From Deltaproteobacteria bacterium RIFCSPHIGHO2_01_FULL_43_49 (GTDB lineage Bacteria > UBA10199 > SPLOWO2-01-44-7), in the NCBI GenBank assembly GCA_001798075.1, contig MGRG01000012.1, positions 155,852 through 219,851 of the forward strand: a DNA stretch of 64,000 nt. The letters run 5' to 3'. The notes below the pieces were generated by a model, which saw nothing but the letters and a program-made list of their open reading frames with translations, did no database searches and had not been told where the DNA came from. Positions 7,927 to 58,601 of the stretch are shown here, in pieces; the first letter of the stretch is position 1; every line of letters begins with the position of its first letter. A program made the translations under genes and the position numbers.

Positions 7927-8020
7927 GTGAGAAAGTGATGGGTGACCCGCAGTGTTGCTGTGGGGTTTAGTTAGGGGTCCCCACAGTAACACGGAGGGGC
8001 AGGACCCGTCACTTTCTCAC
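7927..8020. repeat. Palindromic element, copy 1 (core 7940-8007)
   Basis: The 68-bp core starts GGGTGACCC and ends AGGACCC. It contains an inner stem (TGTGGGG with TCCCCACA) around a TTTAGTTAG loop. The core is bracketed by a perfect 12-bp inverted repeat, GTGAGAAAGTGA (7927-7938) and TCACTTTCTCAC (8009-8020). The core recurs at four other sites in the window, but the flanking arms are unique to this copy. Confidence 0.9.
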
Positions 8021-16665: not shown

Positions 16666-16803
16666 AAATTCTAAATCTTAAGCACTAAATTCTAAACAAA
16701 TCCCAAATCCCAAATTCAAATGTCCCAAATGATTTTGTTTGGAATTTCGGTCATTAGAATTTTGAATTTGTTTAGGATTTCGAAATTAGAATTTAGTATT
16801 TTC
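16666..16803. repeat. Period-7 palindromic array between sdhA and the membrane-anchor gene
   Basis: Heptads such as AAATTCT, AAATCTT, AAGCACT, AAACAAA and TCCCAAA (twice) run through the first half. The second half is roughly their inverted complement, so the whole array could fold into a long AT-rich hairpin. It fills the only gap in the sdh operon. Part of it, including AAGCACTAAATTCTAAACAA, is identical to the array after aspS (56587-56713). Confidence 0.85.
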
Positions 16804-23066: not shown

Positions 23067-23255
23067 GGCAATAGTTCGTAGTGCCCCTGCGAAAAGTGCT
23101 TGAACAAATGATTGGAGCGAAGGGGTGGCCCGGAGTGTTTGTTGTGGGGTTTAGTTAGGGGCCCCCACAAAAACACGGAGGGACAGGACCCCGAAGCTCC
23201 AATCGATATAAAAAAAGCGTTTTTCACAAAGGCCGGAGAAGAATTTGTTGATCAA
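23067..23255. repeat. Composite repeat module containing palindromic element copy 2 (core 23123-23191)
   Basis: The 69-bp core (GGGTGGCCC to CAGGACC) is bracketed by GATTGGAGC (23110-23118) and GCTCCAATC (23196-23204). Outside this, the sequence from GCAATAGTT at 23068 and the tail through TTGATCAA near 23254 are shared with the module at 48392-48645. Outer arms near GCGAAAAGTGCTT and AGCGTTTTTCAC also pair imperfectly, so the palindromes are nested. The module lies between tRNA-Glu and a lipoprotein gene. Confidence 0.85.
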
Positions 23256-49851: not shown

Positions 49852-49942
49852 GAAAAAGTTGTGGGTCCTGCCCCTACGTGTTTCTGTGGGGGCCCCTAAC
49901 TAAACCCCACAGCAAACACTCCGGGTCACCCACAACTTTTTC
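49852..49942. repeat. Palindromic element, copy 4 (core 49863-49931, reverse orientation)
   Basis: The 69-bp core is in the opposite orientation to copies 1-3. It is bracketed by perfect 11-bp arms, GAAAAAGTTGT (49852-49862) and ACAACTTTTTC (49932-49942). With A-rich left and T-rich right arms it looks like a bidirectional terminator stem whose loop has been replaced by the core. Confidence 0.9.
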
Positions 49943-54832: not shown

Positions 54833-56595
54833 TGATGAAACGGACACATACCTGCGGTGAGTTAAATAAGAAACAGGTTGGCAAGAAAGTTATTCTGATG
54901 GGTTGGTGTGATGTCCGTCGCGACCATGGAGGCCTTATTTTCATCGATCTGCGGGATCGGTGGGGAAAAACACAGATTGTTTTTGACCCTTCCGTTGCGC
55001 AAGCAGCACAGGGGCTAGCCAAAGAAATCCGGTCCGAGTTTGTTTTGGAAGTCGAAGGAAAAGTAAGAAAGCGGCCCCAGGGGATGGAAAATAAAAAGCT
55101 CCCCACCGGTGAAATTGAAGTTGTTGTACAGTGCTTGAAAATTTTGAATCGTTGTCCCACACCCCCTTTTGAAATATCCGATCAAGCCGATGTAGCAGAA
55201 GAAGTGAGGCTCAAATATCGTTTTTTAGACCTCCGACGTCCTTCCATGCAAAACTATCTCATTTTGAGGCATAAAACAGCACAGGCAGTACGCAATTATT
55301 TATCAAAACAAAATTTTCTTGAAGTTGAGACACCCGTTTTGACTCGTTCCACTCCAGAAGGGGCAAGGGATTATCTGGTTCCTTCGCGTGTTCAACCGGG
55401 AAAGTTTTTCGCGCTGCCTCAATCGCCCCAGCTTTTCAAGCAACTTTTGATGGTCTCTGGTTTCGATAAATACTTTCAGATCGTTAAATGCTTTCGAGAC
55501 GAGGATTTGCGGGCTGACCGTCAACCAGAGTTTACTCAAGTCGATATCGAAGCCTCTTTTGTGAGCCGCGACGATATTTTGGAGATGGTAGAGGGCCTGA
55601 TTCAAACAGTTTTCAAGGAAGTCTCCGTTAAAAATATCAAAAAATCTTTTGACCGCCTCAACTATAAAGATGCCATGAATTGGTATGGCTCTGACAAACC
55701 CGATCGGCGTGTTCCGTGGAAGATTGAAGATGTCTCGGAGATTTTTAAAAACTCTCCGTTCAAAATTTTTTCCCAAGCTGCTGAACAAGGAAAAGTAATC
55801 AAAGCGCTGAAAGTGACTCCAGCGCAGGATCTCGCAAGGAAAGATTTTGAATCCTTAGAGTCGGAGGTCAAAGGTTTGGGGGCAAAAGGTCTAGGGTGGG
55901 CCAAATTAACAAGTGAAGGCTGGCAGTCCCCCATTGCAAAGAATTTTTCGGATCAGGATAAAGAGGGTCTTTTAAAGAAATTAAAACTCAAAGCGAATGA
56001 CGCCGTTTTATTTGTTGCCGATGAATGGGCTGTTGCCTGCCAAGTCCTTGGTGCTTTGCGACTATCGTTGGGCAAAAAATTGAAAGTGTTCGATGAAAAG
56101 ACAACGGATCTTTGTTGGGTCTTGGATTTTCCTTTATTTGAATGGTCGGCGGCCGACAATCGCTATGTTTCTGTCCATCATCCCTTTACCTCTCCACATC
56201 TAGAGGATCTCTCACTGATGAATGGTAGCGATTTAAGCAAAGTTCGCTCCCTTGGCTATGATTTAGTGATGAATGGCTATGAAATTGGTGGGGGATCTAT
56301 TCGTATTCATGATCGTGATCTACAACAGAAAGTCTTTGAGACGTTGAAAATATCGGCTGAAGAAGCGACCCGCCGTTTTGGCTTTTTACTTTCAGCCTTG
56401 GAATATGGAGCCCCACCTCATGGTGGCATTGCATTAGGATTTGATCGTTTAGTGATGTTGCTTGCCAATTGTAGTTCTATTCGAGATGTGATTGCCTTTC
56501 CCAAAACAACCTCTGCAACTTGCTTGATGACAGAAGCTCCCTCTGAAGTCGATGAAGCACAGCTCAAAGAACTCCATATACAAATTAAATCCTAA
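54832..56595 (+). CDS. aspS: Aspartyl-tRNA synthetase (probably non-discriminating)
   Basis: Class IIb bacterial AspRS, 587 residues. It has the OB-fold anticodon domain with GWCDVRRDHGGLIFIDLRDR, FLEVETPVLTRSTPEGARD, QSPQLFKQLLMVSGFDKYFQ, CFRDEDLRADRQPEFTQVD, the GAD insertion domain, and motif 3 in GIALGFDRLVMLL. His in RRDHGG, rather than Leu, is the residue I associate with non-discriminating enzymes that also charge tRNA-Asn, which agrees with the gatCAB operon nearby. Start ATG overlaps the hisS stop (TAATG); the second ATG (54835) is equally possible. The stop lies in a period-7 array. Confidence 0.95.
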   Translation: MMKRTHTCGELNKKQVGKKVILMGWCDVRRDHGGLIFIDLRDRWGKTQIVFDPSVAQAAQGLAKEIRSEFVLEVEGKVRKRPQGMENKKLPTGEIEVVVQCLKILNRCPTPPFEISDQADVAEEVRLKYRFLDLRRPSMQNYLILRHKTAQAVRNYLSKQNFLEVETPVLTRSTPEGARDYLVPSRVQPGKFFALPQSPQLFKQLLMVSGFDKYFQIVKCFRDEDLRADRQPEFTQVDIEASFVSRDDILEMVEGLIQTVFKEVSVKNIKKSFDRLNYKDAMNWYGSDKPDRRVPWKIEDVSEIFKNSPFKIFSQAAEQGKVIKALKVTPAQDLARKDFESLESEVKGLGAKGLGWAKLTSEGWQSPIAKNFSDQDKEGLLKKLKLKANDAVLFVADEWAVACQVLGALRLSLGKKLKVFDEKTTDLCWVLDFPLFEWSAADNRYVSVHHPFTSPHLEDLSLMNGSDLSKVRSLGYDLVMNGYEIGGGSIRIHDRDLQQKVFETLKISAEEATRRFGFLLSALEYGAPPHGGIALGFDRLVMLLANCSSIRDVIAFPKTTSATCLMTEAPSEVDEAQLKELHIQIKS

Positions 56596-56713
56596 ATCCT
56601 AAGCACTAAATTCTAAACAAATTCTAATGACCCAAATCCAAATGTCCCAAACAATCTTGTTTAGAATTTTGGCCATTGGAATTTAGGATTTAGATATTAG
56701 AATTTAGAATTTT
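56587..56713. repeat. Period-7 palindromic array between convergent genes
   Basis: AAATCCT (twice), AAGCACT, AAATTCT, AAACAAA, TTCTAAT and further heptads, followed by an inverted-complement half. It shares long identical stretches with the array in the sdh operon (16666-16803). The aspS stop codon and the stop of the opposing gene both lie within or at its edges. Confidence 0.85.
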
Positions 56714-57354: not shown

Positions 57355-58059
57355 TTACAGAACGGCTGGAGCCAGCAGGAAGGTTGGACCGACAATCACC
57401 GCAGCATCAACGCTAAACCCCCCTCTGGTAATGGGGAGCTTATATAAATAACTCCTGACTTCAACCTGGAGGGCAAAATGGGGTGGTTTTAAATAGAGAA
57501 GGGTTCCTAATCCAAAAAAGCCATTGGCTAGATCTGCATTATTAATTTTGAGCCAACCCCCTCCCACAAATCCATAAATATCCATTTCTAACACTTTGCC
57601 ATGGCCTACTTTGATGGCAGCAGGCGTCACACCTTTGATGGCTCCATTGACATGAACCATTTTTTTATTGGTGACTGTTTGTCCATAAGCGCTTTGGGGG
57701 TCGACCTCCAATGGACTAAAACCAAAGTCGACAGCAGTCGCGAAATGCCGACTCCAATTGTAAGAAAGTTGAGAGCCGAGAATGTAGGAGGTAGAAACCG
57801 TATCACCGACATAGAGCCCCGCAAAGGGAGATATTTGAACTCTCGACTTTTGAGCCTCGCGCAAGTCGGTAAACATTTTTGGAAGTTCTTGGGCAGCGGC
57901 AGGTTTTATAAATATTGGAAAAAATATTGTTGCGAGAAGTATTAGAAAGGTAGAAAAAAAGAGGCAGGGCCTGTCCCTCCGTGTTTTTGTGGGGGCCCCT
58001 AACAAAACCCCACAACAAACACTCCGGGCCACCCGCCTCTTTTTTATAATTCTTATCAT
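57355..58059 (-). CDS. Putative outer-membrane beta-barrel protein with an element-interrupted signal peptide
   Basis: 234 residues from the ATG at 58059, which overlaps the upstream gene stop in ATGA. The N-terminus is MIRIIKK, then about 25 residues encoded by palindromic element copy 5 (RRVARSVCCGVLLGAPTKTR...), then a hydrophobic core FFSTFLILLATIFFPIFIKP ending AAAQ. The mature part reads as a small barrel (RVQISPFAGLYVGDTVSTSY, FATAVDFGFSPLEVDP, FALQVEVRSYLY, ending FLLAPAVL). The signal peptide would have an extended, strongly basic n-region. Whether export still works cannot be judged from sequence. Confidence 0.7.
   Translation of the reverse strand: MIRIIKKRRVARSVCCGVLLGAPTKTRRDRPCLFFSTFLILLATIFFPIFIKPAAAQELPKMFTDLREAQKSRVQISPFAGLYVGDTVSTSYILGSQLSYNWSRHFATAVDFGFSPLEVDPQSAYGQTVTNKKMVHVNGAIKGVTPAAIKVGHGKVLEMDIYGFVGGGWLKINNADLANGFFGLGTLLYLKPPHFALQVEVRSYLYKLPITRGGFSVDAAVIVGPTFLLAPAVL
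57955..58045. repeat. Palindromic element, copy 5 (core 57966-58034, reverse orientation), inside a coding region
   Basis: The 69-bp core is bracketed by perfect 11-bp arms, AAAAAAGAGGC (57955-57965) and GCCTCTTTTTT (58035-58045). On the minus strand it is read without a stop inside the signal-peptide region of the outer-membrane protein gene. Confidence 0.9.
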
Positions 58060-58601
58060 TTTTCCTTTTGCCGACACAGTTGCCCCACCGCCGCCGATGC
58101 ATGAAGATACAAAATAGGCAGCCACTGTGGGATACCAAAAAAATTGGAACGGGTATAACCAAATAGTCCCAGGGTACTCATTTTGCTTTCCACAAAACAG
58201 CCGACAAACGCTGTTCCGAAAGCGAGTATAATACTCTGCCAAGAACGCTCCCATGCGATCCACGTGACACCATATAATGCGAGCATGATCAGACTGCGGA
58301 TGGGGTAAGAATAAGGCAAATAGCCGCTGATGAAATAAACAAGGATGAAAATGGCGAGACTCCCAATTCTGCGGTAGGGGCGTTTGGCTACACTGGGCGT
58401 TTTAAAAAATCGATGGAGGTGAAAATGTGTAAAGCCGATAAAGGCAGCGGCCGATCCAAATAGAAGGGGAACCCACCACGCCATTTTCCAAATTAAGGGT
58501 GTGGGATAAAAAGTTGTGCCGGAGTGGGTATGAATGCCATCCAGTAGGCTTCCAACGGTCGCACCAAGGAGAAAAAAAAATAAGAGATCTTTCTTCTTCA
58601 T
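58056..58601 (-). CDS. INSIG-like integral membrane protein
   Basis: 181 residues with about six hydrophobic helices. Segments include GATVGSLLDGIHTHSGTTFY, KMAWWVPLLFGSAAAFIGFT and a C-terminal FVESKMSTLGLFGYTRSNFF then PQWLPILYLHASAAVGQLCR. The last block resembles the conserved end of INSIG proteins (YQYTSPDF..V.SWLPC..F..G...G.IGRQL), which in eukaryotes control sterol-regulatory proteins; bacterial relatives exist but have no known role. The assignment is from remembered pattern only. The stop overlaps the outer-membrane protein start by 4 bp. Confidence 0.62.
   Translation of the reverse strand: MKKKDLLFFFLLGATVGSLLDGIHTHSGTTFYPTPLIWKMAWWVPLLFGSAAAFIGFTHFHLHRFFKTPSVAKRPYRRIGSLAIFILVYFISGYLPYSYPIRSLIMLALYGVTWIAWERSWQSIILAFGTAFVGCFVESKMSTLGLFGYTRSNFFGIPQWLPILYLHASAAVGQLCRQKEK

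Follow-up and report, generated by a model that had tools for sequence, protein, structure and literature searches.

A palindromic element lies in frame within signal-peptide coding regions of a deltaproteobacterial genome

A palindromic element repeated in the genome of Deltaproteobacteria bacterium RIFCSPHIGHO2_01_FULL_43_49 is carried in frame within protein genes by 17 of its 101 extracted copies, and 13 of these 17 directly precede the h-region of a signal peptide, lying between the n- and h-regions in both orientations. The initial annotation had covered a single case, copy 5 in the gene of an outer-membrane protein (OMP), which is one of these 13. We consider it probable that this amplified element is kept in genes mainly where the encoded peptide would be harmless, the signal peptide being cut off.

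Results

Copy 5 and its host gene

The window analyzed is a 64,000-nucleotide stretch of contig MGRG01000012.1 (assembly GCA_001798075.1, positions 155,852 to 219,851, forward strand). Its features of interest are as follows.

57355..58059, minus strand: ORF from the ORF list, 234 aa, OMP β-barrel-like, with an extended signal peptide
58035..58045, minus strand: left outer arm of copy 5, AAAAAAGAGGC, 11 nt, encoding the K6-K7-R8-R9 stretch
57966..58034, minus strand: copy 5, 69-nt core, loop-T variant, exactly located, encoding from within R9 to within C32
58003..58005, minus strand: in-frame TTG in the hairpin loop of copy 5, behind GGGG in the sequence, a possible internal start
57955..57965, minus strand: right outer arm of copy 5, GCCTCTTTTTT, 11 nt, complementary to the left arm, encoding C32-L33-F34-F35
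57907..57960, minus strand: h-region FFSTFLILLATIFFPIFI of the signal peptide, beginning inside the right arm of copy 5 and followed by KPAAAQ
7939..8007, plus strand: copy 1, core lacking one base relative to the 69-nt form (the 69-nt frame takes in one arm base)
23123..23191, plus strand: copy 2, with class-B arms TTGGAGCgaa / gaaGCTCCAA
48485..48553, plus strand: copy 3
49863..49931, minus strand: copy 4

The host ORF of copy 5 runs on the minus strand from an ATG at 58059-58057, with AAGGA just 5′ of it (by eye), to a stop codon at 57357-57355. Its product matches TIGR04565 (OMP_myx_plus) weakly, at 31.3 bits against a cut-off of 60, over residues 80-207. The palindrome, composed of the core and the 11-bp arms, spans 91 bp (57955-58045), and the leader reads MIRIIKK, then RRVARSVCCGVLLGAPTKTRRDRPCL, then FFSTFLILLATIFFPIFIKPAAAQ. 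The first FF of the hydrophobic stretch is separated from MIRIIKK by 26 residues, in agreement with the roughly 25 added codons of the initial annotation; with its arms the palindrome accounts for about 30 codons. Five genomes of the same family were searched for orthologues of the OMP, and one was found in each of two genomes from two other genera. The G001 protein (67% identity) reads MKHYTRLIFLLILAFLSIKSASSQ and the G002 protein (60% identity) reads MRKQFGTVLVILFLFSSTAFAE before a common EIP/ELP stretch; both lack the insert, the outcome of the alignment check that the initial annotation had proposed, and the signal peptide of the copy 5 host is ∼33-35 residues longer than theirs.

No in-frame ATG, GTG, or TTG occurs between copy 5 and the 25th codon after it, a position beyond the likely cleavage site. 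A start after the element, which the initial annotation had named as grounds for rejecting its reading, is thus eliminated for the standard start codons, and if the gene works, at least the second half of the element must be translated. The initial annotation had instead argued from a 4-bp ATGA overlap with the upstream ORF (58056-58601). The overlap is present, but no homologue of the upstream gene was detectable beside the G001 or G002 orthologue, so the overlap is not conserved and the argument is weaker than stated; the absence of a later start appears to be the stronger argument for translation of copy 5. Because the orthologues lack the element, the frame is open through it, and no start follows it, the evidence supports copy 5 being a real in-frame insertion at the n/h junction of the signal-peptide coding region. 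We infer that the OMP carrying copy 5 would be made, exported, and cleaved.

The claim that the element is translated holds for its open second half, but the loop TTG (58005-58003) could confine translation to that half. Initiation there, behind GGGG, would supply a new start together with a new n-region (MLGAPTKTRRDRP...), and the corresponding TTG lies in the same frame in two further copies (L116 and L164), where, as in copy 5, it could be the true start. We regard such internal initiation as very unlikely, since in 9 of the 13 signal-peptide cases the opposite strand of the element is the one translated, where the GTG within the element has no purine-rich stretch ahead of it (by eye), copy 5 retains the ATG at 58059 with its AAGGA, and the ATG of the GspD host stands where its orthologues start.

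The element family in the genome

The loop pattern GTGGGGTTTNGTTAGGGGNCCCCAC, with up to 3 mismatches allowed, gave 103 matches in the 2,225,619-base genome (48 forward and 55 reverse), whereas the reversed control pattern gave none. The 101 copies were extracted from 73 stretches round 100 of the loop-match places, and a covariance model search located at least one further copy outside this set, at C8:435600. An alignment of 61 rows was built from 55 of 60 diverse copies picked by script, 5 in-frame copies (L153, L116, L117, L145, and L164), and 1 copy from G002. Five picks were left out (L093, L099, and one copy each of L111, L161, and L162), those of L099 and L111 for divergent or interrupted arms and the others mostly as class-B-like, so that class B is under-represented. 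The alignment supports a hairpin of 37 pairs over 102 model positions, with 95.7% of cells paired. Nineteen pairs are changed on both sides, and the covariation score is 0.349, compared with 0.140 for shuffled alignments (none of 500 reached the observed score) and a maximum of 0.123 when the structure is slid, a control that flatters the result because the structure was derived from the same sequences. The outer helix is the most variable part and is still paired in 90.5% of cells. Copy 5 is not a chance palindrome, given the 103 loop matches against none for the control, the very strong covariation, and the absence of the element from both orthologues.

In many copies the GC-rich stem is flanked by an A-run and a T-run. 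Between co-directional flanking genes, 14 copies are in the same sense and 23 antisense; the corresponding numbers for the signal-peptide copies are 4 and 9. Searching Rfam 15 gave only a tRNA in the window and no match to the element at four loci even at E values up to 1, and the element as a described RNA family was set aside for want of a match above the gathering score. A viral carrier was likewise set aside, there being 0 exact loop matches in viral_contigs. The class-B copies (copy 2, L106, L113, L128, L134, and L154) have their arms in common, several of them with similar wider flanks, and may be part of a larger repeat. Separately, the window contains two copies of an A-rich short-period repeat, AAATTCTAAATC..., at 16666-16720 and 56587-56641.

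In-frame copies concentrate at signal peptides

All 101 copies were translated in six frames, and a copy was counted as in frame when the frame continued as protein and was not explained by a start after the element. The other 84 lie outside coding sequence, although gene calls were ORF-based and some of these may be N-terminal extensions. The signal-peptide copies (L102, L111, L112, L115, L116, L117, L119, L120, L124, L134, L145, L153, which is copy 5, and L164), with signal peptides judged by a home-made hydropathy rule, are preceded by typical n-regions, such as MKYVRLKK, MVNLVKK, and MKKNRMVAKK. With the insert, the extended n-regions measure 29-56 residues and carry net charges of +4 to +9. 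The start is uncertain for L111, and in L112, L134, and L164 possible starts follow closely behind the element, but initiation at these would yield a protein lacking a basic n-region.

Among the signal-peptide hosts are a GspD secretin (TIGR02517, above cut-off), a PilQ-like secretin (Pfam Secretin, above cut-off), and a SctJ/YscJ-like lipoprotein, in which the TIGR02544 match begins at residue 38, directly behind the insert, and is below cut-off while that to Pfam YscJ_FliF is above. The family search also assigned a BamB-like protein, a VWA lipoprotein, and a TPR protein; seven hosts (L102, L112, L116, L124, L134, L145, and L153) had no Pfam match. The four in-frame copies outside signal peptides are in a GcvT/YgfZ-like protein (L104), directly before the conserved domain of a PrmA-like protein (L129), between the two domains of a TrpE/PabB-like protein (L156), and behind the domain of an M23 peptidase (L118). 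Insertions of mobile DNA often inactivate genes, and the inserts might accordingly mark decaying hosts; this is extremely improbable here, as all 13 frames are open through the element into the mature protein and the hosts include core envelope genes (BamB-like and GspD). A separate scan for a hydrophobic stretch behind any copy, whose window or threshold excluded L102 and L145, returned 14 cases, of which 11 keep the frame open across the element and 3 contain a stop within it. In each of these 3, either the gene has a start of its own behind the element or the hydrophobic stretch does not belong to a signal peptide, and the scan thus found no signal-peptide gene broken by a copy.

The frames used in signal peptides are VKKWWVARSVCCGVLLGAPTKTRRDRTRHFF (net charge +7) and, on the other strand, VKKWRVLSLRVFVGAPNKTPQQTLRATHHFF (+6), with hybrid frames produced by small indels in L120, L124, and L134. 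The remaining fully open frame of the consensus, with a net charge of −1, is unused in signal peptides. The used frames need a T at the variable loop base, which is present in 16 of 17 in-frame copies versus 24 of 84 others (Fisher p 4.9e-7), an association that is partly circular because an A in the loop puts a stop codon into those frames.

A lenient rule for signal peptides or N-terminal helices was passed by 9 of the 51 window ORFs of at least 100 aa, a rate that includes doubtful cases, one of them enzyme-looking; the first 15 codons of these 9 ORFs make up about 0.7% of the coding sequence. On these figures ∼0.1 of 17 in-frame copies would be expected at signal-peptide starts, compared with the 13 seen, and the binomial probability, near 1e-25, is indicative only, the 17 having been hand-chosen with leader copies of other genes set aside. 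The in-frame set also favors signal-peptide genes in that elsewhere a start after the element let a copy count as a leader copy. One element upstream of a gene, which we take to be comM-like, has a counterpart of the same family at the same gene in another genus (L131 in G000 and L273 in G002), possibly an old shared insertion.

Orthologous sites and unrelated palindromes

The element is absent from the GspD orthologues in all 5 other genomes of the family, where the orthologues start at the position of the ATG in the present genome, and from the 3 convincing BamB matches in the 5 genomes searched (no match came from G001, and the sole match in G002 was to the element copy of that genome). TrpE-like matches in 4 of the 5 genomes are also without it. 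At the same GspD junction, G004 and G005 carry unrelated palindromic DNA, consisting of inverted GGTCCATGGTCC-type repeats; an unrelated palindrome occupies the same signal-peptide junction of BamB in G004, and another lies in the TrpE linker of that genome (the four loci are L264, L267, L271, and L276). The occurrence of unrelated palindromes at the same sites favors tolerance of the site.

These observations bear on two further explanations. The first is that a hairpin in the early codons is functional, slowing initiation or early elongation and thereby aiding co-translational targeting or setting the level of the exported protein, so that copies would be selected. The position is common to 13 exported proteins, covariation is strong, and in the copy 5 mRNA the stem begins ∼14 nt after the A of the ATG within a 150-nt leader whose folding energy is −52 kcal/mol. 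Function of this kind is nonetheless very doubtful: the OMP (2/2), GspD, and BamB orthologues manage without the element, most copies are noncoding, and the covariation spans noncoding copies and other genera and is therefore no pointer to a role in the leader. The second explanation, which we rate as rather unlikely, is choice of target in place of tolerance, with insertion at junctions of an A-run and a T-run, which in coding DNA are the places where the Lys codons of an n-region meet the Phe and Leu codons of an h-region. A-rich arms were scored in 15 of 17 in-frame copies and in 44 of 84 others. Yet AAAAAGTGGT arms also occur on a copy of another genus, which makes the A-run at least in part a component of the element; four of the in-frame copies are found at other sites, and the same junction is also occupied by unrelated palindromes. 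A target preference for such junctions may contribute; the A-run/T-run arms resemble Lys and Phe codons, which makes preference inseparable from tolerance.

Related elements and arm evolution

A covariance model search of 46 genomes of the class gave matches in 6. In the present genome, a related subtype with another inner hairpin precedes the h-region of a TPR protein (L212), whose gene has a GTG start behind GGAG, and a further relative is in frame before the lipobox of a lipoprotein, presumably HlyD-like, in G004 of genus g5 (L307). These two are the only ones of 30 related loci that precede an h-region; L212 and L285 are two places of one gene and represent the same copy. The part common to the relatives is GGGTGGCC...GGACAGGACCC around an asymmetric internal loop, whereas the inner hairpin and outer arms differ, and other families of the phylum also have related hairpins with this part. 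A pattern of 12 bases taken from it occurs in 18 of the 46 genomes, far more commonly than the control. Of a set comprising 53 fetched places, L173, and L175, 32 members show the complete form, with arms 9 bp long or longer. In G002, the inner hairpin of subtype 2 is matched several times within ∼1.2 kb (C32:12559-13769).

Complementary arms of 12-31 bp around a core of mostly 72 or 96 nt were recorded in families f10 and f16 (L216-L240 and L242). In f10 many loci have arms as long as 25-31 bp, and the arms of different loci are unrelated (mean 5.2 of 16 positions identical). Two orthologous pairs from genus g18 (G018 and G042) have changed in both arms together, L222/L239 by matched substitutions and a matched 3-bp deletion and L227/L237 by two matched substitutions. 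Template switching between hairpin arms is reported to produce such matched changes (PMC8794818). The concerted change in orthologous copies would fit template switching, and selection on the stem would also produce it. That the arms were pre-existing inverted repeats of the target is thought unlikely, both because the f10 arms of 25-31 bp would need many natural palindromes and because orthologous copies alter both arms together.

Discussion

The preferred explanation, retention of an amplified element where its peptide does little harm, can be set out as follows. The element would have been amplified to at least 103 copies, one of which, copy 5, would have entered the OMP signal-peptide coding region at the n/h junction. 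In the two used frames it encodes a stop-free and strongly basic peptide with Lys-Lys at its start and Phe-Phe at its end, so the insert would simply make the positively charged n-region longer, and removal of the signal peptide should eliminate the entire stretch. Copies in genes would be filtered by the harm they cause, the n-region tolerating added length if it remains basic. Such a filter would leave most in-frame copies at n/h junctions and few others in inter-domain or terminal stretches, and copy 5 would persist because it is nearly harmless. We infer that tolerance, rather than targeting or benefit, underlies the concentration at signal peptides, and the element is probably mobile. Hairpin function, a start within the element, and pseudogenization all appear less likely than tolerance. 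The results suggest export signals as sites within genes where such repeats can settle safely.

The initial annotation had drawn a parallel to the Rickettsia palindromic elements (RPEs). Palindromic elements of Rickettsia and Wolbachia are ∼100-150 bp long (105-146 bp for RPEs) and multicopy; they are reported from intergenic sequence as well as, in frame, from the interior of conserved genes, and orthologues of one gene may carry different palindromes (PMC2229807, PMC3767692, PMC10969869). The parallel stands for behavior: the present element is a palindromic stem-loop ∼100 bp long (at 91 bp, copy 5 is slightly under the RPE range), has many copies, is found in intergenic and coding DNA, enters protein genes in frame without destroying them, and shares genes with different palindromes in orthologues. 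It is one of behavior rather than of demonstrated membership in the RPE family, and the present element belongs to another phylum. It differs further in its strong concentration in signal peptides, its locus-specific complementary arms that evolve in concert, and its conserved asymmetric internal loop with a variable inner hairpin. For the MITE-like RU-2/YPAL elements of Yersinia, RU-2 residues are reported to build the signal peptide of one protein, in contrast to 13 cases here, inserted between n- and h-region. REP/REPIN sequences, which RAYT (Y1) transposases mobilize, are also small high-copy hairpins, and six Y1_Tnp genes are present in this genome (L165-L170); however, the present element is longer and has variable arms, and none of the six has a loop motif or a significant core match in its flanks, by which a link to these transposases was ruled out. 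No mobilizing enzyme or parent element was identified for the element, which has inverted arms, and the nearest relatives compared, which belong to other genera, gave no empty site at the DNA level. Intrinsic terminators and terminator-like MITEs resemble many copies in placing a GC-rich stem between an A-run and a T-run, but the stem here has ∼35 pairs and conserved internal loops and also occurs inside coding sequence. In the literature searched, mostly open-access papers, we found no description of any repeat that concentrates in signal peptides, and within that reach the concentration is a new point.

A bolder proposal, which we consider decidedly unlikely as a whole, is that n/h junctions are a recurrent residence of hairpins in the phylum and that some inserts are now functional, the mRNA hairpin and the basic extension of the n-region regulating translation and targeting of envelope proteins. 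The elements themselves would form an undescribed class of mobile hairpins, characterized by a conserved asymmetric internal loop of GGGTGGCC / GGACAGGACCC, inner hairpins that can be exchanged, and arms that differ from locus to locus, with template switching maintaining their complementarity.

Most known examples of protein-coding palindromes come from Rickettsia and Wolbachia, and the present case is from another phylum. Retention of the element where its peptide is harmless would provide a rule for the survival of inserts, namely that they persist in the part of an exported protein that is cut off, and the case offers an open test of the routes by which repeats come to be part of proteins. 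In genomes of this kind, prediction of gene starts and signal peptides is error-prone, as n-regions 29-56 residues long may be missed. The paired arms, with their matched substitutions and 3-bp deletion, offer a natural system for the study of template switching.
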